Origin: a virus
Virus record (IMG/VR): IMGVR_UViG_3300019776_000932
Span: 1-24,726 of that record
Reading direction: 5' to 3' (one strand)
Length of the DNA stretch: 24,726 bases
The position numbers and the translations under genes are program-made. The notes beneath the pieces were generated by a model that made no database searches, was not told the origin of the DNA, and saw only the letters and a program-made list of their open reading frames with translations. How positions within the stretch are numbered: the stretch's first letter is position 1; each line of letters begins with the position of its first letter. Positions 631-24,726 of the stretch are shown piece after piece.

Positions 631-704
631 GGTTTGGTAGTTCAGTTGGTTAGAATACATGCCTGTCACGCATGGGGTCGCGGGTTCGAGTCCCGTCCAG
701 ACCG
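631..704 (+). tRNA. tRNA-Asp (anticodon GTC)
   Basis: A full cloverleaf can be folded by eye. The 7-bp acceptor stem pairs 631-637 with 697-703. The D stem is 640-643/653-656. The anticodon stem CATGC/GCATG holds a CTGTCAC loop with anticodon GTC at 665-667. The T stem is 680-684/692-696 with loop TTCGAGT. The discriminator base is G704, as expected for aspartate. CCA is not encoded. The last 16 bases (689-704) are also the start of the direct repeat that bounds the inserted element, so insertion left this gene intact. Confidence 0.97.
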
Positions 705-829
705 CTAAATTGGGAAGAAGCGATTCAGAAATGAATCGCTTTTTTGCCCAATAAAAGCATCTAAAATAGTTGTGTTGTTTTCGTCACGCCTTTGTAAAGC
801 GTGGCCGGTTTAGTAGTTAGACCAATGAA
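689..829 (+). repeat. Left direct repeat (attL), tRNA-Asp 3' end plus downstream DNA
   Basis: This stretch matches 24586-24726 over 141 aligned bases with mismatches only at 714 (G/A) and 791 (T/C). Identity starts inside the T arm of tRNA-Asp (base 688 already differs) and runs through the tRNA terminator. The right copy reaches the end of the window, so the true repeat may be longer. A duplicated tRNA 3' end next to a tyrosine recombinase gene is the usual sign of site-specific integration. Confidence 0.93.
719..745 (+). terminator. Rho-independent terminator after tRNA-Asp
   Basis: A perfect 9-bp stem, AGCGATTCA/TGAATCGCT, with loop GAAA is followed by a run of six T. It lies 15 bases past the tRNA and within the duplicated att region, so each element end carries a copy. 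Confidence 0.9.
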
Positions 830-979: not shown

Positions 980-2185
980 ATGAACAATTATAAAATTTCA
1001 ATATTATTTTTGCTACAGAAGACAAAAGTAAACAAACAAGGAAAATGTCCTGTTAGATGTAGAATAACGTATAATGAAGGAAGATACGAATTTGCATCTG
1101 GGCAGTTAATAAACCCTGATATGTGGAATAGTAAACTCCAATTACTAAAGCCCCCTAATGAAGAAAATATATTTGTTAATTCACAATTAAGCCTGATTAA
1201 AAATAAAATTAATCAGGCTTTTTTGTACTTACAAATGAAGAACGATAGTTTTTCTGTTGATGATCTTTACGCACAGTTTAAAGGAGAGAAAACTAAAAAA
1301 GAATTTGGTATCATTGAAGTTTATGATTTGTATACCGTTAGGATAAATAAGCTTGTTGGAATAGAGCTCAAATTAGTTACCTATAAGAAATACATTGAGT
1401 CGCGCAACCATCTTTTAGGCTTTGTGAAATGGAAGTTTAAAGCCAATGATTTCAAGCTAAAAGACCTTAAATTCAACTTTATTACTGATTATGAGTACTA
1501 TCTGAAAACCGAAAAAAACCTTCAACAGAGCACGTTGAATAAGGCAATACAGCGTTTTAGAAAAGTTCTTCAGTATGCAATAAGTCAAGATTATTTAGAC
1601 AAAGATCCCTTTGGTATTTATAAGCCGTTAAAGGTTAAAAAAGAGGTGATTTACTTGAGTGTTTTAGAATTATCAAATCTAGAAAAACAGAATTTTTCAC
1701 AAATTAGATTAAGTAATGTTCAAGACCTTTTTATTTTCTGTTGCTACACCGGCCTAGCTTTTAACGAGATGGCTCATCTAGAAAAGCAGCATATTCAAGT
1801 AGGTTTTGATGGTATTAACTGGATCAAGATGAAACGAGAAAAAACACAAGGGTTAGTCTCGATTCCAATACTGCCGAAAGCACAGGAAATTATGGATAAA
1901 TACTCTTTAGAGGACAATCGAATCTTTCCCTCAATCAGCAACCAGAAGTTTAATTCTTACCTTAAGGAGATTGCAGACATTCTAGGTATTGAAAAGCGAC
2001 TCACTCATCACATTGCTAGAAAAACATTTGCGTCAACCGTTCTGCTTTATAATGATGTCCCAATGGAAATTGTATCTGAATTATTAGGACATTCCAAGAT
2101 GAGTACAACACAAGAGAGTTATGGTAAAATCGTTCAGAAGAAAGTAAGTGAAGCGATAAAGAATCTTGCTGAGAGATTAAAGTAA
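980..2185 (+). CDS. Tyrosine recombinase / integrase (Bacteroidota arm-domain type)
   Basis: Site-specific recombinase of 401 residues, the likely integrase and excisionase catalyst of this element. The N-terminal arm-DNA-binding domain (about 1-90) and SAM-like core-binding domain (about 105-215) precede the catalytic domain (about 225-401). Catalytic residues visible are K288, the H344-xx-R347 box, H371 in LLGHS and the nucleophile Y381. The position usually held by the first catalytic arginine reads TGLAFNEM, with alanine at 260. Loss of this arginine is known in Bacteroidota recombinases such as IntDOT, so the protein may still be active. The gene reads inward from the tRNA end, as expected, and stands alone. 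A decayed paralogue lies at 16350-17554. Confidence 0.93.
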   Translation: MNNYKISILFLLQKTKVNKQGKCPVRCRITYNEGRYEFASGQLINPDMWNSKLQLLKPPNEENIFVNSQLSLIKNKINQAFLYLQMKNDSFSVDDLYAQFKGEKTKKEFGIIEVYDLYTVRINKLVGIELKLVTYKKYIESRNHLLGFVKWKFKANDFKLKDLKFNFITDYEYYLKTEKNLQQSTLNKAIQRFRKVLQYAISQDYLDKDPFGIYKPLKVKKEVIYLSVLELSNLEKQNFSQIRLSNVQDLFIFCCYTGLAFNEMAHLEKQHIQVGFDGINWIKMKREKTQGLVSIPILPKAQEIMDKYSLEDNRIFPSISNQKFNSYLKEIADILGIEKRLTHHIARKTFASTVLLYNDVPMEIVSELLGHSKMSTTQESYGKIVQKKVSEAIKNLAERLK

Positions 2186-2575: not shown

Positions 2576-5056
2576 ATGGCGATTAAAAAATCAGAATTAT
2601 ACAGTTCCCTGTGGGCAAGTTGTGACGAATTAAGAGGGGGAATGGATCCAAGTCAATACAAAGACTACATACTGGTTTTATTATTTGTAAAATACGTTTC
2701 CGATAAGTATGCCAACGACCCCGATGCCTTGATTGAAATACCCGAAGGCGGTAGTTTCAAGGATATGCAGGCATTAAAAGGTAACAAGGATATAGGAAAT
2801 CAAATCAATATTATTATTGGTGTATTAGCTGCTGCAAATGACCTGAAAGGAGTTATTGATGTTGCCGATTTTGCTGACGATGACAAATTAGGTAAGGGCA
2901 AAGAGATGGTAGATAAACTTACCAACCTGATTACTATTTTTGAAAATCCTGCACTAGACTTTAGCAAAAACCTTGCAGGTGGCGATGATATTTTAGGTGA
3001 CGCTTTCGAGTACCTTATGAAAAACTTTGCCACCGAAAGCGGAAAAAGCAAAGGACAATTCTACACACCAAGTGAAGTAAGTCGTGTAATGGCTAAAGTG
3101 TTAAGTATTCACGATGCAACAAACAAAACTACATTTTATGACCCAACCTGTGGCTCAGGATCATTGCTTTTAAAAGCCTTGGACGAAGCCGAAGGTAAAG
3201 GTACAATTTATGGACAAGAAAAAGATGTAGCAACGGCTGCCTTGGCTCGTATGAATATGATTTTACACGGACAAGAAGCGATTGAAATTCACCGTGGACA
3301 AAGCACACTTTCCGACCCATTTTTTAAAGACAGCGACGGTTATTTAAAAACCTTTGACTTTGTGGTGGCTAATCCTCCTTTCTCCTCTAAGAACTGGACT
3401 AATGGCTTTAATCCGCAAGATGATCTTTATGGGCGTTTTGAAAAAGACGAAGTGGAAAGTGCTAAAACAGGCAAAGCATCCTACAAAACACCTCCGGATA
3501 AAAATGGCGATTATGCTTTTCTATTGCATATTCTTAAATCATTAAAAAGCACGGGTAAAGGAGCTTGTATTTTGCCGCACGGAGTTTTATTTCGTGGAAA
3601 TGCCGAAGCCGAAATCCGCAAGAGTTTAATAGAACGTGGTTATATCAAAGGCATCATTGGATTACCTGCCAACTTGTTTTATGGCACGGGAATTCCTGCT
3701 TGTATTATTGTAATGGACAAGGAAGGGGCGAATGACCGCAAACATATTTTTATGGTAGATGCGAGCAAAGGCTTTGTCAAAGACGGAAACAAAAATCGCC
3801 TACGAGAACAGGACATACACAAGATTGTGGACATTTTCAACAAGCAAACTGAGTTTCCTAAGTTCAGCCGATTGGTGAGCGTTGAAGAAATTAGCGACCC
3901 AAAAAACGATTTCAATTTAAACATCCCAAGATATATTGACAGCCAAGAAGTAGAGGACATACAAGATATTGAGGCACATTTGTTGGGCGATATTCCAACC
4001 ACAGATATAGAAGCATTGCAGGAGTATTGGGAAGTCTATAATACCTTGAAAGGAGAATTATTCTCTTCAAGCAAAAGAGCCAATTACAGCCAATTAAAAA
4101 TAAGCAAAGACAACATCAAACAAACCATTTTTGACCATCCGGAGTTTGTTACTTTTAGTAAAGAGATGGACACATTGTTTACCGATTGGAAGACAAGAAA
4201 CACCCTAACTTTAAAAGCATTAACTGTTGGTATTAAACCCAAGAAAACCATTTTCCGAATCTCGGAAGATGTGTTAACAGCCTACACAGGCAAAGCTTTG
4301 ATGGACAAATACGATGTGTACCAGCATTTGATGAATTACTGGAACGACGTAATGCAAGATGATTGCTATTTGATTGCTGCCGATGGTTGGAAAGCCGAGC
4401 TAATCATTAAGAAGCATACCAAAGCAGCTACCGTTTGGGATTGCGACTTAGTACCAAAAACATTGGTAATCGACCGCTATTTCCTTGCCGAGAAAAAAGC
4501 CATTGAAAAACTAGAAGCCGACAAAGAAGCCATTGCCACCCAACTCACCGAACTAGAGGAAGAACACAATACAGAAGATGGCTATTTTGCGGACTTGGAT
4601 AAAGTGAACAAAGCCAATGTACAAAAACGACTGAAAGAACTACTGGCAACAAAACCAAAAGGGAAAAAGCAAAATTTATCCTTTGCAGCCGAACCCGAAA
4701 CAGCCTATGGAGAACAAGCAGTTTTAGAATTGTATTTAAAACTACTAGACGACCAAACCGAACTGAACAAAAAAATAAAAGAAGCTACAACTGCCTTGGA
4801 TATTAAAGTGATTAATCGCTACAAAACACTTACCGAAAACGAAGTAAAACAACTCGTGGTGGATGATAAATGGATGGCAAGCATAGAGCGAAGTGTAAAA
4901 ACCGAAATGGAACGTATTAGCCAACGCCTGACCCAGCGCATAAAAGAACTGGCAGAACGCTACGAAACACCCCTACCCAAACAAACTACCGATGTAGCTG
5001 AATTAGAAAATAAAGTTACTGCTCACCTCAAAAAAATGGGATTTGTATGGAACTAA
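2576..5056 (+). CDS. hsdM: Type I restriction-modification DNA methyltransferase subunit HsdM
   Basis: Adenine-N6 methyltransferase subunit of a type I RM system; with HsdS it methylates the host sites that HsdR would otherwise cleave. An N-terminal HsdM_N domain (about 5-150) is followed by GQFYTP (160-165), the SAM-binding motif I DPTCGSG (189-195) and the catalytic motif NPPF (266-269). At 826 residues it is much longer than the roughly 500-residue classical HsdM. The extra C-terminal part (about 490-826) is charged and helix-rich with probable coiled-coil segments, a form also seen in other long HsdM proteins. First gene of the operon; its end overlaps hsdS by 10 bases. Its DNA looks less AT-rich than the genes at 6315-10085. 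Confidence 0.96.
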   Translation: MAIKKSELYSSLWASCDELRGGMDPSQYKDYILVLLFVKYVSDKYANDPDALIEIPEGGSFKDMQALKGNKDIGNQINIIIGVLAAANDLKGVIDVADFADDDKLGKGKEMVDKLTNLITIFENPALDFSKNLAGGDDILGDAFEYLMKNFATESGKSKGQFYTPSEVSRVMAKVLSIHDATNKTTFYDPTCGSGSLLLKALDEAEGKGTIYGQEKDVATAALARMNMILHGQEAIEIHRGQSTLSDPFFKDSDGYLKTFDFVVANPPFSSKNWTNGFNPQDDLYGRFEKDEVESAKTGKASYKTPPDKNGDYAFLLHILKSLKSTGKGACILPHGVLFRGNAEAEIRKSLIERGYIKGIIGLPANLFYGTGIPACIIVMDKEGANDRKHIFMVDASKGFVKDGNKNRLREQDIHKIVDIFNKQTEFPKFSRLVSVEEISDPKNDFNLNIPRYIDSQEVEDIQDIEAHLLGDIPTTDIEALQEYWEVYNTLKGELFSSSKRANYSQLKISKDNIKQTIFDHPEFVTFSKEMDTLFTDWKTRNTLTLKALTVGIKPKKTIFRISEDVLTAYTGKALMDKYDVYQHLMNYWNDVMQDDCYLIAADGWKAELIIKKHTKAATVWDCDLVPKTLVIDRYFLAEKKAIEKLEADKEAIATQLTELEEEHNTEDGYFADLDKVNKANVQKRLKELLATKPKGKKQNLSFAAEPETAYGEQAVLELYLKLLDDQTELNKKIKEATTALDIKVINRYKTLTENEVKQLVVDDKWMASIERSVKTEMERISQRLTQRIKELAERYETPLPKQTTDVAELENKVTAHLKKMGFVWN

Positions 5057-6318
5057 GAGCAGGTTATAAAAATACGGAGGTTGGTTTAATTCCTGAGGAT
5101 TGGGAGGTAAAAACCTATGATGATGTTTTTGAATTCTTAGCTACTGCAACTTATTCACGAGCAGAATTGACCGAAATTGACAATGTTAAATATGTTCACT
5201 ATGGAGATATTCATACCAAATGGAATTTTTTTTTAGATATAAAGCAAAGTAATCTTCCAACAGTAAGAGATGGACAGGTGAAGAATTACCATTTACTAAA
5301 AGATGGTGACGTTATTATGGCTGATGCTTCGGAAGATTATTCTGGAATTGGTAAAAGCGTAGAAGTTAAAAATTTAGGTTCTGTCAAAGCAATTTCTGGA
5401 TTACATACTTTCCTATTTCGTGATAAAAATGAAGTCTTTGTAAATGGATTTAGAGCATATATTCATTTCAATAAAGTTGTCAAAACTCAATTTGATAGAC
5501 TTGCAACAGGTTTGAAAGTATATGGTGTTTCAAAAGGAAATTTAAAAACAGTAAAAATTCCAATCCCGACCAAAGCTGAACAAACCGCCATTGCCACAGC
5601 CCTATCCGATGCCGATGCTTTGATAAGCGGTTTAGAAAAACTCATTATTAAAAAACGCAACATCAAGCAAGGGGCAATGCAAATACTCCTGCAACCAAAA
5701 GAAGGTTGGGTAGAGCAATCTATTTTTCAAATTGCGGATAGTAAAAAAGAACTTTTTGATGATGGAGATTGGATAGAATCTGAACACATCACTGACAAAG
5801 GGATACGTTTAATTCAAACAGGAAACATTGGAGTAGGAAGTTATATTGAGAAAGAAAACCGCAAATATATTTACAAAGAATCCTTTGAGAGATTGGGTTG
5901 TAAATTATTGAAAGTTGGTGATTTGTTAATTTGTAGGCTTGCAGAACCAGCAGGAAGAGCTTGCATTTTTCCATTTATTGGAGAAGAAAAAGTTATTACT
6001 TCAGTTGATGTTACTATTTATAGACCGAGAGAAGAAGCTGTAAATAGACAATTCTTAAATCAAATATTCTCTACAAGTAATTGGTTTAGATCAATAAGTG
6101 ATTTATGTGGGGGAACAACACACAAAAGAATTTCAAGAGGTGCACTTGGTCGAATTAAAATTTTACTTCCAAAAATTGAAGAACAAACCCGTATCTCCAC
6201 CATCCTTTCAGATATGGATATCGAGATAACAGCATTAGAAACTAAGTTGGGAAAATATAGAAAGGTTAAGTTAGGAATGATGCAAAACCTTTTAACTGGT
6301 AAAATACGGTTGGTATGA
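5047..6318 (+). CDS. hsdS: Type I RM specificity subunit HsdS
   Basis: DNA sequence-recognition subunit of the HsdMS methylase and HsdRMS nuclease, 423 residues. It has two target recognition domains (about 15-172 and 222-372). The first begins with the typical TEVGLIPEDWEV-like lead (10-21). A helical spacer is at about 172-218 (PIPTKAEQTAIATALSDAD) and a second at about 373-420 (LPKIEEQTRISTILSD). Both targets can therefore differ, giving a bipartite recognition site that cannot be predicted here. The spacer DNA resembles hsdM in composition while the recognition domains are more AT-rich, the usual picture of recognition-domain exchange. It overlaps hsdM by 10 bases and the next gene by 4. 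No second hsdS or inverted partial copy was found nearby. Confidence 0.95.
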   Translation: MELRAGYKNTEVGLIPEDWEVKTYDDVFEFLATATYSRAELTEIDNVKYVHYGDIHTKWNFFLDIKQSNLPTVRDGQVKNYHLLKDGDVIMADASEDYSGIGKSVEVKNLGSVKAISGLHTFLFRDKNEVFVNGFRAYIHFNKVVKTQFDRLATGLKVYGVSKGNLKTVKIPIPTKAEQTAIATALSDADALISGLEKLIIKKRNIKQGAMQILLQPKEGWVEQSIFQIADSKKELFDDGDWIESEHITDKGIRLIQTGNIGVGSYIEKENRKYIYKESFERLGCKLLKVGDLLICRLAEPAGRACIFPFIGEEKVITSVDVTIYRPREEAVNRQFLNQIFSTSNWFRSISDLCGGTTHKRISRGALGRIKILLPKIEEQTRISTILSDMDIEITALETKLGKYRKVKLGMMQNLLTGKIRLV

Positions 6319-7031
6319 AAGGAAGTAAATATGCAATATTAAAATTGGTGGAATCAAGTAATTTTCTCAATATCATAAATGATTTGCTTAAACCAACTGG
6401 AGCAAAAGTAAGTACTTATGACAATTGGATGCCTAAAAGCATAAGTTATGATAAAGAAGCCGAATTAAATGACTTTCTGAAACATAATTTCAATACTAAG
6501 TTATCAAGCGATATTACTAAATGGTGGCTACACAAGGACGCAACAACCCCAAACTGGGATTTGATTGCTAGCTGTACAATCAATGACAAACGAGGTATTC
6601 TCTTAGTCGAAGCCAAAGCGCATTGTTATGAATTAGAGAATGAAAGTAAAGGCAAAAAACTTGATATAGATGCATCAGAGGATTCTAAATTAAACCACCA
6701 AGAAATAGGCAAAGCTATTGAGCAAGCCAATTCCGAAATCAACAAGAAAATCAGTGGCGTTGCCATTTCACGAGATAATTGTTATCAACTCTCAAATCGA
6801 GTGGCTCACGCTTGGTGGTTAGCCAATCAGGGGATTCCTGTCATGCTAATGTATCTTGGGTTCCAAGAGGTGAAAGATATGAATGACGGTAAAAACCGAC
6901 TCTTTACTTGCCATAATGATTGGCAAGAATGTTTTACTAAGCACGCAGAACAAATAGGAGTGGATAAGATTATTAATAAAAGTGTTGATTGCGGAAATAG
7001 TAAATTCATTACGATTTGTAGGATTTTATAA
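6315..7031 (+). CDS. Unnamed PD-(D/E)XK nuclease-like protein within the RM operon
   Basis: I do not recognise a named family for this 238-residue soluble protein. It shows a plausible PD-(D/E)XK core: PNWD with D82, then about 16 residues later LLVEAKAH with E99 and K101, preceded by a helix containing E50 that could be the first core helix. The middle (about 105-160) is lysine- and glutamate-rich, followed by a hydrophobic HAWWLANQGIPVMLMYLGF segment (165-183) that fits a core strand and helix. It starts in an ATGA overlap with hsdS and lies 22 bases before mcrB, so it is translated as part of the operon. It may be an extra effector nuclease or a DNA-binding accessory; nuclease activity is inferred only. 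Confidence 0.6.
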   Translation: MKGSKYAILKLVESSNFLNIINDLLKPTGAKVSTYDNWMPKSISYDKEAELNDFLKHNFNTKLSSDITKWWLHKDATTPNWDLIASCTINDKRGILLVEAKAHCYELENESKGKKLDIDASEDSKLNHQEIGKAIEQANSEINKKISGVAISRDNCYQLSNRVAHAWWLANQGIPVMLMYLGFQEVKDMNDGKNRLFTCHNDWQECFTKHAEQIGVDKIINKSVDCGNSKFITICRIL

Positions 7032-7053
7032 ATGGAAAATAGAATAATATAAA

Positions 7054-8787
7054 ATGGAGTTTAAAGATATAGGAGACTTAGTTAATAAAGTGAACACTGC
7101 GTTAGGAGGGTTCTGCAATGAATTTGGCAGAGAACGAAAAGAACTTGCAGGTTTAGGAAAAGTGCCTAAGCGGGGTATTTTGTTTACTTATGATAAGAGC
7201 AAAGGCAATAACTGGGCTATAAATGAAGGTGGCGGTACAGAGATACAATATCATCTTGTATTCGATAGTGATGACTTAGAAATCAGATATGGTTTAGGTT
7301 TCAATACACAATATGTGCCTTTTGCCAATCAAATGAGTACTGTTGAATATATGCAACCTTATATAAATGGTTTTCTCAATCACGAAAAACAAATAAGACA
7401 GATTTTATCAGATTATGATTTTATATATGGTACTATAGAACAACTCAAAAAACCGAAGCATAACCAATACACACTTTTTGGCAAATCACTGAGTGTTGAA
7501 GAAAAAGACGAATTGTATTTCATCGAAGACATTGAATTTGAAACTATTATAGACGATTTAAAAAAACAGTTTGAACCATACAAGATTATATTTACTGAGA
7601 AAAAAAACTTCAAAAAAGTAGCAATGAGTATTCAAAACAACATTAATGTACTAATTCAAAAAGGACAAATCATTTTACAAGGCCCTCCAGGAACTGGTAA
7701 AACCTACACGGCAAAAGATATTGCAGAACAAATGCTTTTTTCAAAAGTTTCTGATGACAAAAAACTACAAAAGACTTTACTTGAAAGTACTGAGCAATTC
7801 AAACTCATTCAGTTTCATCCAGCCTATTCATACGAAGATTTTGTGAGAGGAATTGTTGTGAAAACAGATATTAGTAGTATTCCAGAATATCGCACTGTGA
7901 ACAAAATTCTTGGAGAATTTGCGAGAAAAGCAAATGAAAGTAATTTATCAGGAGGAACCGATGATTTTGATAGAGCTTGGAATGAACTTGTTCTGGAAAT
8001 AAATGCTGGGATGGTAACTAAAATTGGCAGTAGCGGTGTGGAAGTGGATATAAACACTCAAGGAAATATTAGGTTTAAATCTCCTGTTGCTACTTATGAA
8101 AAAACATATGAACTCTATAAGTTTGGGAAAACTGACTTAAAATATGAAACATACAATAAAATAGTTCTTAACTACCTGAAAGATACTAAGGAAAAATACA
8201 AACTGAAAGATTATGTTTCCCCAAAATCAATCAATTCAGACATACCTTACGTACTTATTATTGATGAAATAAACCGAGCCAACTTGCCTGCTGTACTGGG
8301 CGAATTAATTTATGCCTTGGAATACAGAGGCGAGAAAGTAGAAAGTATGTATGCAACAATAGAAGAAGGTAATACATTAATTTTACCTCCCAATCTTTTT
8401 ATTATCGGAACGATGAATACTTCCGACCGCAGTGTAGGACATATTGATTATGCTATACGCAGACGATTTGCGTTTATTGATGTTCTACCAAAAGTTCTAG
8501 AAGGGGATTATTTTGAACTGGAATTATTTAAATTCGTTTCTTCTCTCTTTATTAAAAACTTCGATGAATATATGCTGGACAATACGGTTGAGTTAAAAAT
8601 CTCCGACCATTTATCCGAAGAATTCAGACCGGAGGATGTTTGGTTAGGTCATAGTTATTTTATCAATGGTAAAGGAGATTTTGGCTTGAGAGTAAAATAT
8701 GAAATCATTCCTATTTTAAAAGAATATGTAAAAGATGGTATTCTTAAACAAAGTGCTGAACCAATAATCAACGCATTGTTAAGATGA
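7054..8787 (+). CDS. mcrB: McrB-like AAA+ GTPase of a McrBC restriction module
   Basis: AAA+ motor of 577 residues; McrB proteins bind modified DNA through the N-terminal region, translocate with GTP hydrolysis and activate the McrC nuclease. Walker A GPPGTGKT is at 210-217 and the McrB signature FHPAYSYEDFVRG at 254-266. Walker B LIIDEINRAN is at 401-410 and the sensor region GTMNTSDRS at 452-460; RRRF at 469-472 provides the likely arginine finger. The N-terminal about 190 residues form the presumed target-reading domain, whose specificity is not evident. It starts 22 bases after the PD-(D/E)XK gene and overlaps mcrC by 4 bases. Its position between hsdS and hsdR, not beside the RM operon, is the odd feature. 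Confidence 0.92.
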   Translation: MEFKDIGDLVNKVNTALGGFCNEFGRERKELAGLGKVPKRGILFTYDKSKGNNWAINEGGGTEIQYHLVFDSDDLEIRYGLGFNTQYVPFANQMSTVEYMQPYINGFLNHEKQIRQILSDYDFIYGTIEQLKKPKHNQYTLFGKSLSVEEKDELYFIEDIEFETIIDDLKKQFEPYKIIFTEKKNFKKVAMSIQNNINVLIQKGQIILQGPPGTGKTYTAKDIAEQMLFSKVSDDKKLQKTLLESTEQFKLIQFHPAYSYEDFVRGIVVKTDISSIPEYRTVNKILGEFARKANESNLSGGTDDFDRAWNELVLEINAGMVTKIGSSGVEVDINTQGNIRFKSPVATYEKTYELYKFGKTDLKYETYNKIVLNYLKDTKEKYKLKDYVSPKSINSDIPYVLIIDEINRANLPAVLGELIYALEYRGEKVESMYATIEEGNTLILPPNLFIIGTMNTSDRSVGHIDYAIRRRFAFIDVLPKVLEGDYFELELFKFVSSLFIKNFDEYMLDNTVELKISDHLSEEFRPEDVWLGHSYFINGKGDFGLRVKYEIIPILKEYVKDGILKQSAEPIINALLR

Positions 8788-10085
8788 TAATACTAAGCGA
8801 ACAATATGGCTACAGAAACCCAAAATCAATAGAGAATATTGAACGCTTTGTTGGCGCATTAAAAAATAAACCTTACAGTAAATCTATTCAACGTGGAGAG
8901 AATAAGGCATACTGTTATAATATACATCATTCAGGAAGTGAAATCGATCCCTACCGTTTTGAAACTTCTTATTTCGTAGGAGTTGACTGGATTGTAGAAA
9001 AAGAATTATCTATATATGTTAAGCCGAAGTTAGATGATAACAATTCTGAAGTGAATTATGTAAAGATGCTTTTCGAAGCTCTAAAAGAACCTGAAAACTA
9101 TAATCACTTAGACCAACTGTGTGAAATAAATTTTGATAAGCCATCTATCTCTATTCAACAAAGTCAAGATTTATTAACTCCTCTGCTCCTCATCCAGTAC
9201 ATCAACATCTTGAAAAAGATTGTACAGAAAGGATTAAAGAAATCATATTACCAAGTCACAAAAAATCTAAATGCAAAAATTAAAGGAAGAGTTTTAATAA
9301 ATGAAACGATTAAGAAAAATCATTTCAACAACAAAATGCTTTTTAACTACTGCCAATACTCAGAATTTGGCATCAATAGCATTGAGAATAAGATTTTGAA
9401 AAAAGCATTGGAATTTTCAATAGCTGCAATGCAGAACTTAAAGGGAATAGAAACAACACAGATTAAAGGATTGTTGAATTACATTCAACCCGCTTTTGTA
9501 AATGTAGATAGCGAAGTAGATATTAATGAATTAAAGTATGTCAGACCAAACAAACTATATAAAGAGTACGAACAAGCACTCAAGTTTGCAAAACATATTT
9601 TGAAACGATATGGATATAACATATCAACTGCAAATTCAACTGTAGTTAATACCCCTCCTTTCTGGATTGATATGAGCAAACTTTTTGAGCTGTATGTTTT
9701 TTCAAAACTGAAAGAACGGTTTAACCATCATAAAGAAGTTACCTATCATAAAAAATTTAATTATCTAGAACCTGATTTTATTGTAAATTCGAAAGATAAA
9801 TCTTGTATAATGGTTGTAGATGCAAAATACAAACCGCAATATCAAGATGGCAACATCAACACAGAAGACATCAGACAGATTAGTGGTTATGCAAGACTTA
9901 ATAAAGTGTATGATTTTTTAGAATTTGAAAAAGATAAAATAATAGATTGCCTTGTTATTTACTCAAATCAGGGTGCAAAAAGAACAGATTTCAAAGGAGA
10001 AAATTTTAAGCTTGAACTAGAGAAAGAGTATAATAGTTTTTATAAAATTGGAATTGAATTGCCGATAAAAAACAATAAAAAATGA
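8784..10085 (+). CDS. mcrC: McrC-like endonuclease subunit
   Basis: Nuclease partner of McrB, 433 residues, start in an ATGA overlap with mcrB. The N-terminal half (about 1-290) is the McrB-interacting part. The C-terminal part holds the PD-(D/E)XK core: EPDFIV with D331, VVDAKYKP with D346 and K348, and a downstream Q365 within a helix (DIRQISGYARL). Conserved PFWIDMSKLFELYV (292-305) is typical of the family just before the nuclease core. McrBC modules cleave DNA carrying modified cytosine or other modified bases. Strong translational coupling to mcrB on one side and hsdR on the other means all are made together. Confidence 0.92.
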   Translation: MIILSEQYGYRNPKSIENIERFVGALKNKPYSKSIQRGENKAYCYNIHHSGSEIDPYRFETSYFVGVDWIVEKELSIYVKPKLDDNNSEVNYVKMLFEALKEPENYNHLDQLCEINFDKPSISIQQSQDLLTPLLLIQYINILKKIVQKGLKKSYYQVTKNLNAKIKGRVLINETIKKNHFNNKMLFNYCQYSEFGINSIENKILKKALEFSIAAMQNLKGIETTQIKGLLNYIQPAFVNVDSEVDINELKYVRPNKLYKEYEQALKFAKHILKRYGYNISTANSTVVNTPPFWIDMSKLFELYVFSKLKERFNHHKEVTYHKKFNYLEPDFIVNSKDKSCIMVVDAKYKPQYQDGNINTEDIRQISGYARLNKVYDFLEFEKDKIIDCLVIYSNQGAKRTDFKGENFKLELEKEYNSFYKIGIELPIKNNKK

Positions 10086-13000
10086 GCAAAGTAGGACAAA
10101 TAGAACGTGCCACCCAAAACCGCATCGTGCGATTGTTTCAAGAGCAATTAAAATATGGGTATTTGGGTAATTTAGAAAAGGAAGAAGACAACAGCAATGT
10201 GGATGAAACTTTGCTTACGGCACATTTAACCAAACAAGGTTATAGTCCTACACTCATTAATAAAGTTTTGTTTGAATTTAAAAAGCTAGTAACCATCAAC
10301 ACTAGCGATGACCTATATCAAGCCAATAAAAATGTATATGCAGCACTTCGTTATGGCATCAATGTAAAGGAAGAAGCAGGACAAAACAAAACAACGGTTC
10401 ATTTAATAGACTGGAAAAACCCACAGCAAAATGATTTTGCCATTGCTGAAGAAGTAACCATCAAAGGACAACATAAAAAACGCCCTGACATCGTTATTTA
10501 CATTAACGGTATTGCTTTGGGAGTGTTAGAATTAAAACGAAGTACCGTTTCGGTTTCCGAAGGTATTCGCCAAAACAATGACAATCAAAAACATTTGTTT
10601 ATCAAACCATTTTACACCACCATTCAGTTAGTAATGGCAGGACAAGATGTAGAAGGGTTGCGATATGCAGCAATTGACACTTCGGAAAAATATTATTTGA
10701 AATGGAAAGAAGTAAGCGAAGAGTTTAATTCAAATGATTCTTATCTTTTAGGATTGACCAAGCTTATCAGACAGAAAGCCGACCAAGCCAATAATCTTTT
10801 GGATAAGCATATTATAGAAATGCTTAACAAAGAACGATTACTCGAAATCCTTCACGACTTTGTAGTTTTTGACCGTGGACAAAAGAAGTTTTGCAGACCC
10901 AATCAATACTTTGGTTTAAAAGCTGCACAGGAGCACATTCGTCTAAAAGAAGGTGGTATTATCTGGCACACACAAGGTAGCGGAAAGAGCTTGACGATGG
11001 TGTGGCTCACGAAATGGATACGGGAATACAACCCAAATGCAAGAGTATTAATCATTACTGATCGAGACGAACTGGACAAACAAATTGAAAAGGTTTTTAA
11101 AGGTGTTGATGAACATATAGTAAGAACAAAGAGCGGAGCTGATTTAATTGAAAAATTGAATGACACAAAGCCTTGGCTGTTGTGTTCGCTCATTCACAAA
11201 TTCGGCAACAAAGAAGAAGCTGACTACGATAGTTATTTACAAGAACTAAAAAATAGTTTGCCAAAAGACTTTAAACCTAAAGGAGATTTTTATGTTTTTG
11301 TAGATGAATGTCACCGCACCCAAAGCGGAGATTTAAACAAAGCAATGCGACAACTCTTAGGTGAAAAGGCTTTATTTATTGGTTTTACAGGAACGCCTAT
11401 TATGCAAGCTGATAAAAAGCAAAGCATTACTATTTTTGGAAAATACATACACACCTATAAATTTGATGAAGCCGTAAAAGATGGTGTAGTATTAGATTTA
11501 AGATATGAAGCAAGAGACATTGAACAAAAAATATCTTCTCCAGATAAAATTGATACTTGGTTTGACAGCAAGACAAAAGGATTAACCGACTTTGCCAAAA
11601 CTGAACTCAAACAGAAGTGGGGAACAATGAAAAAAGTGTTCAGCTCAGTGGGACGATTACAGAAAATTGTTGCCGATATTTTGTTGGATATGGAAACCCG
11701 TGAACGACTGCAAAACGGACGAGGTAATGCGATTCTGGTTTCAGGTAGTATTTACAATGCGTGCCGTTATTATCAGTTGTTTCAAGAAGCAGGTTTTACA
11801 AGATGTGCTATCATCACTTCCTTTGCTCCAAGTTATGCAGATATAAAAGGTGAAGGTGAAGGACATACTGAAAAGTTGATGCAATATGAGATTTACCAAA
11901 AGATGCTCAATGGTAAAACAAGTGAGGATTTTGAAGATGAAGCCAAAAAGAGATTTATAGATGAACCTGCACAAATGAAGCTCTTGATAGTAGTAGATAA
12001 ACTGCTTACTGGTTTTGATGCTCCAAGTGCAACTTATCTATACATTGATAAAAGTATGAAAGACCACGGCTTGTTTCAAGCCATTTGCCGAGTAAATCGA
12101 TTGGACGGAGACGATAAAGATTACGGGTACATCATTGATTATAAAGACTTGTTTGGCAGTTTAGAAAATGCCTATAATGATTTTACTTCCAAAGCCTTTG
12201 AAGACTACGATAAAGCAGATGTGGAAGGATTGTTAAGCGATAGGCTCGACAAAGGGAAAGAACGATTAGATGATGCCTTGGAAACAATTAAAGCATTGTG
12301 TGAGCCTGTAGTTCCTCCTAAAGGCACAAAGGAATACATTGCCTATTTCTGTGGAAACACACAAATTCCAGATGATCTTAAAGATAGCGAACCTAAACGA
12401 GTGGCTTTATACAAAGCTGTCATTTCATTGATTCGTGCCTATGCCAACATCGCAGATGAAATGGAAGAAGCAGGCTATAAACCAAACGAAATTGAAAACA
12501 TCAAAAATGACTTAAAACACTTTGAAAGTGTTCGTAAAGAAATCCAATTAGCTAGTGGAGATTGGGTTGATTTAAAGCAATACGAGCCAGCAATGCGCCA
12601 TTTAATTGATAGCTACATTGGAGCGGAAGAAAGTAAAAAAGTTTCTGCTTTTGATGATTTCAGTTTAGTAGAATTACTTGTAAAAGACGGCACAAGTGCT
12701 TTAAATAAATTACCTGAAAGCATCACGAAAAACAAAGCAGCAATGGCAGAAACCATTGAAAACAACTTGCGAAAAGTAATCATTGAAGAAAGTCCAACCA
12801 ATCCGATTTACTACGAAAAAATGAGCGTGTTGCTTGATGAGTTAATCAAACTAAGAAATGAAGAAGCAGCAGAATACGAAAAGTATTTAGAAGAGATAAT
12901 AAAACTAGCTGTAAAAGTAAAGAAACCTGAGACAAGCAACGAATATCCTTCAAGCATTAATACGCAAGCTAAACGAGCTTTGTATGACAACTTAGATAGG

Positions 13001-13189
13001 GATGAAACACTTTCTATGGTGATGGATGCAGCAATAATCTATGGTAAGCACGATAATTGGGAAGGGAACTTGGCAAAAGAAAAACACTTGAAAAATAAAG
13101 TGGTTAAGCCTGTTTTAGAAGAGCACCATAAACCTGAAAAGTTAGAGCCTATTTTCGAAGTTATTAAACAGCAAAAGGATTATAAGTAG
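10082..13189 (+). CDS. hsdR: Type I restriction endonuclease/translocase subunit HsdR
   Basis: Motor and nuclease subunit of the type I enzyme, 1035 residues, a normal length. The N-terminal HSDR_N nuclease has RPDIVIY with D136 and ELK at 150-152. The superfamily 2 helicase part has Walker A TQGSGKS (297-303), DECH (408-411) and FTGTP soon after. It ends with the helical C-terminal domain that docks to HsdM. It starts in an ATGA overlap with mcrC and is followed after 2 bases by the metallopeptidase gene. DNA composition again resembles hsdM more than the mcrBC block, suggesting hsdM, hsdS and hsdR share a history and the block between them was inserted. Confidence 0.96.
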   Translation: MSKVGQIERATQNRIVRLFQEQLKYGYLGNLEKEEDNSNVDETLLTAHLTKQGYSPTLINKVLFEFKKLVTINTSDDLYQANKNVYAALRYGINVKEEAGQNKTTVHLIDWKNPQQNDFAIAEEVTIKGQHKKRPDIVIYINGIALGVLELKRSTVSVSEGIRQNNDNQKHLFIKPFYTTIQLVMAGQDVEGLRYAAIDTSEKYYLKWKEVSEEFNSNDSYLLGLTKLIRQKADQANNLLDKHIIEMLNKERLLEILHDFVVFDRGQKKFCRPNQYFGLKAAQEHIRLKEGGIIWHTQGSGKSLTMVWLTKWIREYNPNARVLIITDRDELDKQIEKVFKGVDEHIVRTKSGADLIEKLNDTKPWLLCSLIHKFGNKEEADYDSYLQELKNSLPKDFKPKGDFYVFVDECHRTQSGDLNKAMRQLLGEKALFIGFTGTPIMQADKKQSITIFGKYIHTYKFDEAVKDGVVLDLRYEARDIEQKISSPDKIDTWFDSKTKGLTDFAKTELKQKWGTMKKVFSSVGRLQKIVADILLDMETRERLQNGRGNAILVSGSIYNACRYYQLFQEAGFTRCAIITSFAPSYADIKGEGEGHTEKLMQYEIYQKMLNGKTSEDFEDEAKKRFIDEPAQMKLLIVVDKLLTGFDAPSATYLYIDKSMKDHGLFQAICRVNRLDGDDKDYGYIIDYKDLFGSLENAYNDFTSKAFEDYDKADVEGLLSDRLDKGKERLDDALETIKALCEPVVPPKGTKEYIAYFCGNTQIPDDLKDSEPKRVALYKAVISLIRAYANIADEMEEAGYKPNEIENIKNDLKHFESVRKEIQLASGDWVDLKQYEPAMRHLIDSYIGAEESKKVSAFDDFSLVELLVKDGTSALNKLPESITKNKAAMAETIENNLRKVIIEESPTNPIYYEKMSVLLDELIKLRNEEAAEYEKYLEEIIKLAVKVKKPETSNEYPSSINTQAKRALYDNLDRDETLSMVMDAAIIYGKHDNWEGNLAKEKHLKNKVVKPVLEEHHKPEKLEPIFEVIKQQKDYK

Positions 13190-13191
13190 TA

Positions 13192-13920
13192 ATGGAAGAA
13201 ATAAAAGTGTTAGAAATTAGCTCTCAACTTTCTATTGATGTAGTTCGTAAAGACATCAAGAATATGCACTTGGCGGTATATCCTCCAACTGGCAGGGTTC
13301 GAATAGCAGCACCTTTAAGAATTGATGATGAAGCGGTACGACTTTTTGCTATTTCAAAAATTGCTTGGATAAGAAAGAATCAACGGAACTTTAATTCTCA
13401 GGAGCGACAAGCACCACGACAATTCAAAGAAAGGGAAAGTCATTACTTCCTAGGCAAACGCTATCTTTTGAGAATCATTGAAGAGGAAGCACCGCCTAAA
13501 GTCGTGTTTAAGACCAAAACATATATCGACTTATATGCAAGACCAAACAGCACTTTAGAACAGCGTCAAACGATTATAAATGAATGGTATCGGGCGGAGT
13601 TAAAGAAACTCATTCCGGTTATCATTGATAAATGGGAAAATCAAATTGGAATATCAGTTAATGACTGGCAAGTAAAGCAAATGAAAACCAAGTGGGGAAC
13701 TTGCAACATAGAAAAAAAGAGAATTTGGATAAACTTAGAGTTGGCTAAGAAGCCATTGCATTGCTTGGAATATATCGTGGTTCACGAAATAATACATTTA
13801 TTAGAACGACACCACAACGACCGTTTCCTGAGCCTAATGGAAAAATATATGCCCCAATGGAAGTTTTATAGAGAAGAATTAAATCGTTTGCCTGTAAGCC
13901 ACGGAGAGTGGAAGTATTAA
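13192..13920 (+). CDS. YgjP/DUF45-type zinc metallopeptidase-like protein
   Basis: Protein of 242 residues with a C-terminal HEIIH zinc motif (H198, E199, H202), a likely third ligand at H207 or H208 in ERHHNDRF, and the family-typical MKTKWGTCN segment (164-172) before it. These features define the YgjP-like/DUF45 family, often annotated as M48-like. Such genes frequently sit right after hsdR in type I RM operons; their role there is not settled, with controlled proteolysis of HsdR one idea. The start lies 2 bases after the hsdR stop, so it is the last gene of the operon. Family assignment is good, function uncertain. Confidence 0.87.
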   Translation: MEEIKVLEISSQLSIDVVRKDIKNMHLAVYPPTGRVRIAAPLRIDDEAVRLFAISKIAWIRKNQRNFNSQERQAPRQFKERESHYFLGKRYLLRIIEEEAPPKVVFKTKTYIDLYARPNSTLEQRQTIINEWYRAELKKLIPVIIDKWENQIGISVNDWQVKQMKTKWGTCNIEKKRIWINLELAKKPLHCLEYIVVHEIIHLLERHHNDRFLSLMEKYMPQWKFYREELNRLPVSHGEWKY

Positions 13921-14158: not shown

Positions 14159-16111
14159 ATGACAAAAATTAACACATCCCGTTTCGTGCAAGGTTCTTTG
14201 TTTGAAGAAGATTACTTAATTAGAACATTAGGAGCATTAGTAAATTCGCCAGAAATTGCGTTGACTGAACTAGTTGCAAACGCTTGGGATGCTGGAGCAA
14301 CAATTGTAAATATTATTATACCTAACGAGTATGGAGGTAAGTTAATTATTGAGGACAATGGTACTGGGCTGACTAAAGATCAATTTTTAACTAGATGGAT
14401 GAAGTTAGGTTACAACAGGTTAAAACATCAAGGAAAAAACGTATTATTTCCTAAGGGAGTAGAAGGAAAAAGGTTTGCTTATGGACGTAACGGAATTGGA
14501 CGACATGGTTTATTGTGCTTTAATAATGAATATTCAGTAATAACAAATTCAGAAGGAATAAAATCAAAATTTATTATAACAACATTAAATGAAAGCCAAC
14601 CATTTGTTATAAAGGAAAATATCTTTGAAAAATCAAAAACAGCAGGAACAAGACTTGAAGTAATAGTCAATAAAAATTTACCAAAATCAGATAGAATGCT
14701 TGATATAATTTCTGCAAGGTTCCTGCATGATCCAAAATTCAAAGTTTCTATAAACAAGAAAACTGTTCCATTAGAACAACTGACAGGTTTAATTAATTCG
14801 AAACCAATTTTGGTTGGTAAAACCAATCTTACTGCACATTTTATTGACTCGCAGAAATCAGGGCGCTCAACTATTTATCAAGGTGTCGCGTTTTGGCAAG
14901 GAGGTCGCCTTGTTGGAGAACCATCTTGGATTCTAGGGACAGAATTTATTTTGGATGGTAGAACTAAATATGCCAAAAGATATACTATTGTAGTTGAAAC
15001 AAATGACTTAGCCGATTTTATAATTGAAGATTGGACTGGTTTTAAGAAAGATGAACATATGAATGCTGTATATGCAGCCGTAGGTGAATATGTAAACGAA
15101 ATGTTTGGTATAATTGCTAGCGACAATATAGAAGAAACAAAACAGCAAATTAGAAGCGACTATGCAAGTGATTATGCAATACTCTCGCCACTTGCAAAAT
15201 ATGAATTAAACGAAGCTATTGAATCAATAACAATTACACATCCAACGGCAAAACAAGAATCAATATCAATAGCAGTCGAAGCAATTATTAATTTAGAAAA
15301 GACAAGAAACGGCAAAGACCTTTTAGTAAAACTTTCTAAATTAACTGAAGATGATATTTCAGGCCTTAATGAATTACTTAATAAATGGTCGGTTAGAGAC
15401 GCATTAAGTGTTTTGGACGAGATTGACAATCGAATTTCTGTAATTGAAGCTATCAGAAAATTATCAAGAGACAAAGATGTTGATGAACTTCATGTTTTAC
15501 ATCCATTAGTAACAGGGGCAAGATGGTTATTTGGTCCAGAATTTGAATCAGCGGAGTATTCTTCAAATAGGCAACTCCAAAATGCTGTTGAAATAGTATT
15601 TAAAACTAAGATCGATAAAAAGGTTTTCAATAATCACAGGAAAAGACCAGATATTGTTGTTCTGCCAAATTCAACTATTTCGATTACAGGTACAGAAAGC
15701 TTCGATTTGGATTCATCTCTTTCAACCGTAAATAGAATACTTCTTATTGAACTCAAAAAAGGAGGTTCAAAGCTTTCAAGAGATGAGAGAAATCAAGCAA
15801 CAGGCTATGTAGAGGATTTTATGAATTGTGGTGCTTTAATAGGAAATCCACACATAGAGGCTTTTGTTATTGGAGCTGAATTTTCAGAAAAGGTTCAACC
15901 AATGACAACAGTTTCCAATGAAAATAAAGTTGAACTAGGCAAAGTTAGGATCAGCACCTTTGCTCAGTTAGTTGACACAGCAGAGAAAAGACTTTTTGGG
16001 TTAAGAAATACGTTAAGTGAAAGATATGATGATATTCCTGGTATGGATTTATTTCGTCAGCAAGCAAAGCAATTAAAGGTACATTTTGAAAAAGATGGCA
16101 CAAATAATTAA
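14159..16111 (+). CDS. GHKL/HSP90-type ATPase fused to DUF4263/Shedu-like PD-(D/E)XK nuclease
   Basis: Two-domain protein of 650 residues. The N-terminal GHKL ATPase shows the N-box ELVANAWDAGA (37-47, with E37 and N41), the G1 box EDNGTG (65-70) and the G2 box GRNGIGRHG (109-117), as in HSP90, MutL and MORC proteins. After a helical linker (about 325-440), the C-terminal domain has a LHPLVTGARWLFGPEF lead (447-462), RPDIVV with D498, LLIELKK with E531 and K533, and Q546-xxx-Y550. This order fits the PD-(D/E)XK core of DUF4263/Shedu nucleases. MORC/MutL-like ATPases are known beside RM genes, and Shedu nucleases carry varied N-terminal sensor domains. I infer a single-gene defence nuclease gated by an ATP-driven clamp. 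It stands alone after the RM operon. Confidence 0.82.
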   Translation: MTKINTSRFVQGSLFEEDYLIRTLGALVNSPEIALTELVANAWDAGATIVNIIIPNEYGGKLIIEDNGTGLTKDQFLTRWMKLGYNRLKHQGKNVLFPKGVEGKRFAYGRNGIGRHGLLCFNNEYSVITNSEGIKSKFIITTLNESQPFVIKENIFEKSKTAGTRLEVIVNKNLPKSDRMLDIISARFLHDPKFKVSINKKTVPLEQLTGLINSKPILVGKTNLTAHFIDSQKSGRSTIYQGVAFWQGGRLVGEPSWILGTEFILDGRTKYAKRYTIVVETNDLADFIIEDWTGFKKDEHMNAVYAAVGEYVNEMFGIIASDNIEETKQQIRSDYASDYAILSPLAKYELNEAIESITITHPTAKQESISIAVEAIINLEKTRNGKDLLVKLSKLTEDDISGLNELLNKWSVRDALSVLDEIDNRISVIEAIRKLSRDKDVDELHVLHPLVTGARWLFGPEFESAEYSSNRQLQNAVEIVFKTKIDKKVFNNHRKRPDIVVLPNSTISITGTESFDLDSSLSTVNRILLIELKKGGSKLSRDERNQATGYVEDFMNCGALIGNPHIEAFVIGAEFSEKVQPMTTVSNENKVELGKVRISTFAQLVDTAEKRLFGLRNTLSERYDDIPGMDLFRQQAKQLKVHFEKDGTNN

Positions 16112-16349
16112 TTAAAAAAGTTAAAAATAATTTGGCAAAAATAATTAAGCCAAAAAGACTCAGAGCATCAAAGAGAATAACAGAACAAGACGCAAGAAAC
16201 GAATTTGAAAGCGATTTTAGTATGTGATTTACAATTATCAGAAATAACGGTTTTTCTTTATGAAAGATTAATTCCCTAATCCACTTTTAATCTTTTCATT
16301 GTTAAATTTGAATGATACATCTATTCTTCAACTTTATATCATTGGAATT
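16112..16349. other. Intergenic region before the decayed recombinase
   Basis: AT-rich DNA with one weak hairpin, TTTGGC (16131-16136) with GCCAAA (16149-16154), not followed by T on the plus strand. No copy of the tRNA-Asp att sequence could be found here. This is the junction between the defence cargo and the second element backbone. Confidence 0.35.
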
Positions 16350-17554
16350 ATGCATCAGGAAAAAATCTCGGTTCTGTTTGTATTAAACTCAAGCAGGACT
16401 AATCAAAAAGGATTATGCTCTCTTTATTGTAGAATCACCTTAAACAAGGAAAGAAAACAATTCTCTACAGGATTATTAGTTAATCCAACCCATTGGGAAA
16501 GCAAGCGTCAAGAAGTAAGTACTTATGAGCCTAATCACAAATATATCAATGCTCAGATAGAGCGAATTCAGGTTAAGATTTATAACATAGCTTTAGTTTT
16601 TCAACTGCAAGGAATTAAGTACTCGCTTGAGGATATATGTAATGAATACAAAGGTGTAGAAAGCAAAAAGAAGGAGTGTGTATCATCGTATTACAATCAA
16701 TATTTATCAAGAATTAAAAAGCTTATAGGTCTGGAGATAAAACAAAACATATGATAAGTTCGACTATGTCGGTAAAGATTTAGAAGCTTTTATAAAATCG
16801 AAATATAAAAAGTCTGATTTGTCTTTAGAAGAGTTGAATTTACAGTTTCTCGATGATTTTGACTACTTTCTAAAGACCGAGAAGAATCAAAAACAAGTGT
16901 AACTATCAACAAGGAGATTCAACGGCTTAGAACACCTATAAAACGAGCTATTTCAGAAGGTTATTTAGATAGGAGCCCGTTATATTATATAAGTCAAAAA
17001 CAGTTCGAAAAGAGGTTGTATTCCTTTCTGTAAAAGAACTCAGAACTCTTGAAGAAGCAGTGTTACAACTAAAAAGATTGTGTATGATTCAAGATTTATT
17101 CATCTTCTGTTGTTACACAGGACTAGCCTATAATGAAATGGTAAATCTTGAGAAGCAGAATATCCAATTAGGGTTTGATAACATTAACTGGATTCAGATG
17201 AAGCGAGAAAAAACTCAACGTCAACTCTCCATTCCTATTCTTCCTAAAGCACAAGAAATCATTTATAAATACCTAACAGAAAGTAATCGCATATTCCCTT
17301 CTATAAGTAACCAGAAATTCAATTCATATTTAAAAGAAATTGCTGCTATTATAGGGATTGAAAAAAGGCTTACTCATCACACGGTAAGGAAAACATTTGC
17401 TTCAACTGTTCTCCTATATAATGACGTACCGATGGAAATCGTCTCAGAGCTTTTAGGTCATTCTAATATGACAATTACGCAGGAGAGCTATTGGAAAATT
17501 GTGCAGAAGAAAGTGAGTGAGGCAATAAAAAATCTAGCTGAAAAATTAAAATGA
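16350..17554 (+). pseudogene. Decayed second tyrosine recombinase, paralogue of the 980-2185 gene
   Basis: The reading begins at the ATG at 16350 (KISVLFVL matching KISILFLL of the intact copy). It runs through the arm domain until a frameshift near 16745 brings the stop at 16752-16754. Translation continues in another frame as TYDKFDYVGKDLEAF, shifts again near 16900 (to TINKEIQR) and a third time near 16985 (to YKSKTVRKEVVFLSV). It then stays open to the stop at 17554 with the catalytic part intact: K in MKREKTQ, HxxR in HHTVRKT, LLGHS and the Tyr in QESYWK. Like the intact copy it has alanine in TGLAYNEM. At least three frameshifts make it non-functional as a full protein. The 3' flank is also homologous to that of the intact gene. 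Confidence 0.88.
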
Positions 17555-17562
17555 AATTCTTC

Positions 17563-17625
17563 ATTCTTCTCAAGACAAAGTACAAACTTAAAAAGTACTC
17601 CTATTCTTGAGAAGGATTTATTTTT
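17563..17625 (+). terminator. Second copy of the recombinase 3' hairpin
   Basis: The outer stem pairs 17563-17575 with 17605-17617 with one G-T wobble, and the inner stem AGTAC (17579-17583) with GTACT (17595-17599). A T-rich tract follows. Compared with the copy at 2192-2255 the structure is kept although bases differ, which argues that the hairpin matters. Confidence 0.68.
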
Positions 17626-17701
17626 GATTAACCTAATCGTTTTGAGGTTTCCCGTAAGGTATAGTTAAAAAAGTAGTTTAGGTTTATATGGAATCAATCA
17701 G

Positions 17702-24585: not shown

Positions 24586-24726
24586 AGTCCCGTCCAGACC
24601 GCTAAATTGGAAAGAAGCGATTCAGAAATGAATCGCTTTTTTGCCCAATAAAAGCATCTAAAATAGTTGTGTTGTTTTCGTCACGCCCTTGTAAAGCGTG
24701 GCCGGTTTAGTAGTTAGACCAATGAA
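24586..24726 (+). repeat. Right direct repeat (attR), ends at window edge
   Basis: Second copy of the 141-bp repeat at 689-829, with two mismatches. It carries only the last 16 bases of tRNA-Asp (24586-24601), so it is not a second tRNA gene, plus the terminator. Similarity still holds at the final base of the window. Confidence 0.93.
24616..24642 (+). terminator. Duplicated tRNA terminator in the right repeat
   Basis: This is the same 9-bp stem, GAAA loop and T run as at 719-745. Here it lacks the tRNA gene in front. Confidence 0.85.

Follow-up and report, generated by a model that had tools for sequence, protein, structure and literature searches.

The window analysed here, the whole stretch of 24,726 nt recorded in IMG/VR as IMGVR_UViG_3300019776_000932, contains a ~23.9-kb segment bounded by direct repeats that span at least 140 nt and include the 3′ end of a tRNA-Asp gene (Table 1). 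In relatives, the same gene beside the tRNA, which we take to be DUF58-like, and the tRNA-Asp sequence are found uninterrupted. Together, the bounding repeats and the uninterrupted site indicate an integrative island and not a plain phage, and no capsid, terminase or portal gene was found among the window ORFs checked; the virus label given to the window in IMG/VR looks doubtful. Besides the intact integrase of the island, a second tyrosine integrase (16299-17554) is decayed by stops and frameshifts, and its C-terminal part is closely similar to the intact one. A 112-nt repeat (85% identical, 2179-2290 and 17550-17661) lies at the 3′ end of each integrase gene, which suggests a second related element, a duplication, or an integrase-linked site.

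Table 1. Features of the island and of the GHKL ATPase-nuclease gene (positions in the window)
Feature	Position	Strand	Basis or remark
Left direct repeat, candidate attL: tRNA-Asp 3′ end (tRNA 631-705) and downstream sequence	690-829	+	Recurs at 24587-24726
Intact tyrosine integrase of the island	980-2185	+	Pfam Phage_integrase, SAM_5, Arm-DNA-bind_5
Operon of HsdM, HsdS, 238-aa protein, McrB-like, McrC, HsdR and YgjP-like genes	2576-13920	+	Upstream of the GHKL gene; not a recurrent partner
GHKL ATPase-nuclease gene, paraMORC3 / GHKL-Shedu kind	14159-16111	+	ATG start, 650 aa; ORF call, Pfam, homologues
GHKL (Bergerat) ATP-binding domain, residues ~30-165	14246-14653	+	Pfam span, conserved columns, fold matches
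S5-like middle domain, residues ~172-298	14672-15052	+	Nearly invariant columns, model secondary structure, Foldseek
Helical linker, residues ~299-424	15053-15430	+	Helices 299-436 predicted in AlphaFold2 model
C-terminal PD-(D/E)XK nuclease domain, residues 425-622	15431-16024	+	A6 alignment, profile matches, model core
Right direct repeat, candidate attR, reaching the window end	24587-24726	+	Copy of 690-829

The upstream operon has its McrB-like and McrC genes embedded in a type I restriction-modification (R-M) run whose genes mostly overlap by 4-10 bp, suggesting one transcriptional unit that combines type I and type IV-like restriction. The 238-aa protein of this run (6315-7031) gave no match in searches of Pfam, NCBIfam, PADLOC and PHROGs. 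In another Bacteroidota genome, a 35% identical homologue (L173, 8730-9458) directly follows an HsdS-like gene and precedes an HsdR-like one; no McrBC match was found there, and this context suggests that the protein may be an accessory of type I R-M.

The gene under study is intact, reading through 650 codons without a break and with all catalytic residues present. The initial annotation had proposed an Hsp90/MORC-like ATPase fused to a nuclease in exactly this ORF, and for the ATPase half both Pfam and fold matches bear it out. HATPase_c_3 matches residues 30-138 (2.7e-15), in agreement with the proposed GHKL family, and the N-box (E37, N41, D44), the first glycine motif (D66-x-G68-x-G70), the second (G109-R-N-G112-x-G114) and G163-T164 are all in place, so that the N-box, G1 and G2 motifs first read from the sequence are complete. 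The S5-like domain retains K273-R274 and D291-W292; K273-R274 holds a candidate catalytic basic residue, a role that K273 would fill. A full-length AlphaFold2 model (mean pLDDT 73, pTM 0.46) matches Hsp90/TRAP1 and MORC3/MORC2 structures in Foldseek with E values of 1e-14 to 1e-11, over alignments of ~390-450 columns to Hsp90 N and M domains and MORC ATPase cassettes, and the N-terminal 300 residues thus model as an Hsp90/MORC-type GHKL+S5 module. The top NCBIfam match is the BbrUII/HgiDII restriction-enzyme family (4.5e-30), followed by MutL models over residues 25-76, and the REase_II matches in PADLOC are limited to the ATPase (best 3.5e-10), with SduA not significant at 0.017. The C-terminal half has no significant match in Pfam.

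The C-terminal domain carries E443, W456, R496-P497-D498, E531-x-K533, Q546 and Y550. The RPD, IELKK and QxxxY motifs had been recognized at the outset in PD-(D/E)XK order, and the residues named then (D498, E531, K533, Q546 and Y550, with N41 in the ATPase) are correct and conserved down to 21% identity; the list had missed E443, an invariant residue at the start of the domain that supplies the first E of an E-D-ExK motif. Conservation was read from an alignment of 18 sequences, reaching down to 21% identity, and from a second set of 22 rows. E37, D66, G68, G70, G109, G112 and G114 are invariant in both. In the 18-sequence alignment N41, E531, K533, Q546 and Y550 are invariant and D498 nearly so, and D44, R110, T164, K273, R274, W456, G459, R496 and P497 are invariant or nearly invariant; in the second set E531 is the nearly invariant one and D498 does not vary. 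These columns indicate that the catalytic residues of both halves are strongly constrained. One homologue (L048, 7782-9761) has VDLK in place of (I/V)ELK, with D instead of the catalytic E.

To assign the nuclease, we compared profiles by hhalign, using one profile of the C-terminal domain (A6), a second built from the closer clades only (A2), and a reference of 12 canonical Shedu domains gathered with PF14082. A6 matches canonical Shedu SduA_C with a probability of 97.9 (E 6e-13, 152 columns) and aligns the E, D, E-x-K and Q positions with one another, and A2 still matches with a probability of 93.4. Control HSDR_N nucleases reached 92.4 against A6 over merely 65 motif columns and 16.8 against Shedu; as the Pfam E value for HSDR_N was 0.059 as well, this identity was rejected. 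The BbrUII-type clade has a nuclease domain related to both sides, with probabilities of 98.3 (1e-14) to the C-terminal domain and 96.8 to Shedu. Independent links exist too: full-length relatives (e.g., one at 24% identity, 1e-18) score 32 bits on SduA_C against a cut-off of 27, and two A1 members match SduA_C in Pfam (best 3.1e-6). The window protein itself has no SduA_C match in Pfam at E<=1, nor has its C-terminal fragment, a local SduA_C-type HMM did not match the protein, and a PDB sequence search with the nuclease profile returned no match. A separate model of the C-terminal part, of moderate confidence (pLDDT 73, pTM 0.68), shows a strand/helix core of restriction type. Foldseek returned nothing significant for it (best E 0.015), and the matches listed include no Shedu structure; the top ones are mostly PD-(D/E)XK nucleases (McrC, MspJI, EcoO109I, BspD6I, NucC, EndoMS), which on its own would be weak evidence. 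A chance PD-(D/E)XK motif is excluded by the catalytic set kept to 21% identity and by the profile match. From this match and the bridging homologues we conclude that a PD-(D/E)XK nuclease related to Shedu forms the C-terminal domain, even though the protein fails the direct Pfam test; the Shedu-like nuclease first suspected here is upheld at the level of profiles, not by a direct SduA_C hit.

A genome scan yielded 13 relatives, and the 12 that are full-length (64-74% identical in the best segment) come from eleven Bacteroidota and one Riflebacteria MAG; a Seramator homologue is 74% identical over the full length. The Riflebacteria homologue (68% identical) adjoins a RES-HEPN toxin-like gene and represents a probable cross-phylum transfer, or MAG contamination. 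The thirteenth relative, from Chryseobacterium defluvii (L014, 8983-9468), is reduced to the C-terminal nuclease portion (161 aa, 61% identical) and is likely a remnant. More distant relatives on alphaproteobacterial plasmids are 28-33% identical across ~94% of the length, and a single-sequence viral scan with the window protein found no close relative. Most proteins with the nuclease domain have the GHKL half too, the exceptions being fragments or split genes; in one contig (L052, 6812-8794, shared with L112) the ATPase and nuclease halves form two consecutive ORFs, pointing to a split system or to a gene that has been broken. Relatives at the protein level (1e-10) occur in 9 of 395 sampled genomes of the phylum and nuclease-profile matches in 18 of 395, a sparse distribution such as a mobile defence gene would predict. 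The clade of the window protein belongs mostly to Bacteroidota, and its members share no conserved neighbours.

This last point follows from comparing loci. The gene starts 238 bp past the YgjP-like gene that closes the upstream operon and runs in the same direction; a search around it for terminator-like sites, this gap included, found none. None of the genes neighbouring it in the window recurs near the 12 close homologues, pairwise comparison of neighbours within the clade revealed no common partner gene, and some close homologues adjoin unrelated household or polysaccharide genes (SusD, peptidyl-tRNA hydrolase, glycosidases). A conserved partner gene was rejected on these comparisons of 12 loci, and the gap together with the non-recurring neighbours indicates that the gene stands alone, as a single gene in a defence island, which is how it had first been described; a type I R-M/McrBC operon lies upstream. 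Canonical Shedu genes were seen near two homologues, 10 bp downstream on the same strand in one (L022, 6007-9412) and two genes upstream in a tight same-strand run in the other (L011, 6612-10899); two cases are too few for a partnership.

The pairing of domains is not new. The initial annotation knew of no named system with it, but paraMORC3, VcSduA and the BbrUII/HgiDII enzymes all precede the window protein. ParaMORC3 was described in 2008 as GHKL+S5 with a C-terminal restriction-endonuclease-fold domain carrying E-D-ExK, prevalent in proteobacteria and Bacteroidetes and partly stand-alone; paraMORCs are often linked to R-M, and some of those found apart from R-M genes were suggested to have been recruited to repair (Iyer, Abhiman and Aravind 2008, PMC2292703). 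Likened to this family by its description, the window protein shares intact GHKL motifs with all the ATP-binding signatures, an S5 fold C-terminal to GHKL, and the E-D-ExK domain (E443, D498, E531, K533), and we found no defining difference. VcSduA joins GHKL to DUF4263 and protects E. coli from phage, and protection is lost with E27A in the ATPase or K557A in the nuclease; the growth curves point to direct restriction instead of abortive infection, and the ATPase is proposed to control the nuclease (Nat Microbiol 2025, PMC12137116). V. cholerae is also reported there to be protected from a vibriophage, and VcSduA is assigned to Shedu type I-D, following Gu et al. 2025 as cited in that paper.

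Compared by description, VcSduA and the window protein are both single proteins in which an N-terminal GHKL domain is followed at the C terminus by a DUF4263/SduA_C-related PD-(D/E)XK nuclease, and the ATPase E and nuclease K are conserved in both; a GHKL domain joined N-terminally to the nuclease, the mark of type I-D, is thus present. Unlike that of VcSduA, the window nuclease has no direct Pfam SduA_C match, and 496 residues separate the N-box E from the catalytic K against 530 in VcSduA (E27, K557), which weakly suggests that the two probably belong to different clades. Canonical Shedu SduA (PF14082; e.g., PDB 8ti8, 8ps4) shares the order E / D / E-x-K / Q in the profile alignment, so the homologous nuclease and its catalytic residues are found without a match at the gathering score, but the solved proteins have N-terminal domains of their own where the window protein has GHKL+S5. 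The BbrUII/HgiDII enzymes (NF050001; e.g., the "ParaMORC3" of phage PhiR44_1) have a GHKL ATPase and a homologous nuclease in ~650 aa; they carry RxDI..IELKRP where the window protein has RPD..IELK, and significant pairwise similarity (37%) is limited to ~105 ATPase residues. The GHKL-nuclease pairing, its phage-blocking function and the gating idea are therefore already published, the pairing since 2008 and the anti-phage activity since 2025, and the window protein is a divergent member of a known architecture that adds a divergent clade. Homologues in a named system with another function had been set as grounds for refutation; this holds in part, since paraMORC3 and VcSduA are homologues described under a name, but the function described is the predicted one.

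Since the best curated match is to BbrUII/HgiDII and the nuclease domains are homologous, the protein could be a sequence-specific type II restriction enzyme of that type, with its methyltransferase elsewhere or orphaned. Its NF050001 score is 104.8 bits where the cut-off is 550, and the stretch that matches best lies in the ATPase; the PhiR44_1 protein scores 751. Nearly all BbrUII-type loci on viral contigs have a C5-methyltransferase ORF within ~50-420 bp; none was found beside the gene in the 12 loci of the window clade, some of which are cut at contig ends, nor beside the window ORF, which is flanked by HsdR/YgjP and the broken integrase, and no ORF with an N6-methyltransferase motif lies near the 12 closest relatives. 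In a tree of 72 GHKL-nuclease proteins, built by a quick method with long branches and used for the unity and separation of the window clade alone, this clade is fully supported, near an alphaproteobacterial clade and apart from the methyltransferase-linked one. The split between clades is not absolute, as a clade-II relative (L027) has a methyltransferase-like ORF directly upstream. Identification as a BbrUII restriction enzyme was rejected on the cut-off and methyltransferase tests, and we consider a type II enzyme of this kind unlikely; the protein is best read as a stand-alone ATP-gated nuclease. A start 238 bp past the operon in the same orientation, the failure to find a terminator-like site in the gap, and the R-M links of paraMORCs (PMC2292703) would fit an accessory effector that senses stalled HsdR or McrBC complexes, yet the operon genes recur at 0 of 12 close homologues and some of these have the unrelated neighbours named above, making such a role decidedly improbable.

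A MutL-like nuclease for mismatch or very-short-patch repair, outside defence, draws on the MutL resemblance of the N-terminal sequence and on the repair recruitment suggested for versions outside R-M contexts (PMC2292703), but the sparse distribution by protein and by nuclease profile, the location on a mobile island, and the fact that the sole tested stand-alone protein found with such an architecture is anti-phage (PMC12137116) make it very unlikely. Decay into an inactive gene, as has happened to the nearby second integrase and as the split or fragmentary relatives (L052, L014) might suggest, is hard to reconcile with an unbroken 650-aa frame, a full set of catalytic residues and the full-length identity to the Seramator homologue, and we give it hardly any credence. 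The clade could also be a functionally distinct GHKL-nuclease branch that responds to a trigger of its own and perhaps cooperates with a canonical Shedu nuclease, as the Shedu genes near two homologues might hint; we regard this as rather improbable, and if the pairing were true it would make a two-nuclease, ATP-gated system.

Taken together, the window protein is quite probably an anti-phage nuclease of the paraMORC3 / GHKL-Shedu kind, gated by ATP, acting as a single protein and carried as cargo of a tRNA-Asp island in a Bacteroidota chromosome. No phage assay on a member of the window clade was found in the literature consulted, and a defence function is inferred from homologues such as VcSduA. 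In the mechanism we propose, the protein would most likely form a homodimer through its C-terminal half, and ATP binding would bring the two GHKL+S5 modules together as a clamp that encloses DNA, or else a phage structure bound to DNA. The helical linker would relay the ATP-bound state to the PD-(D/E)XK domains, a presumed coupling of ATPase and nuclease, and these would cut foreign DNA with metal ions held by D498, E531 and K533, assisted by E443 and Q546. The trigger of the nuclease is likewise a putative element of this proposal.

In conclusion, with this protein the range of GHKL-gated immune nucleases grows to include a clade, mostly from Bacteroidota, that neither Pfam SduA_C nor PADLOC-DB 2.0.0 recognizes as Shedu. 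It also links paraMORC3, Shedu type I-D and the BbrUII/HgiDII enzymes, which have been named separately, through their homologous nuclease domains, and it offers a model for testing how a GHKL nuclease that has no methyltransferase distinguishes foreign DNA from its own.
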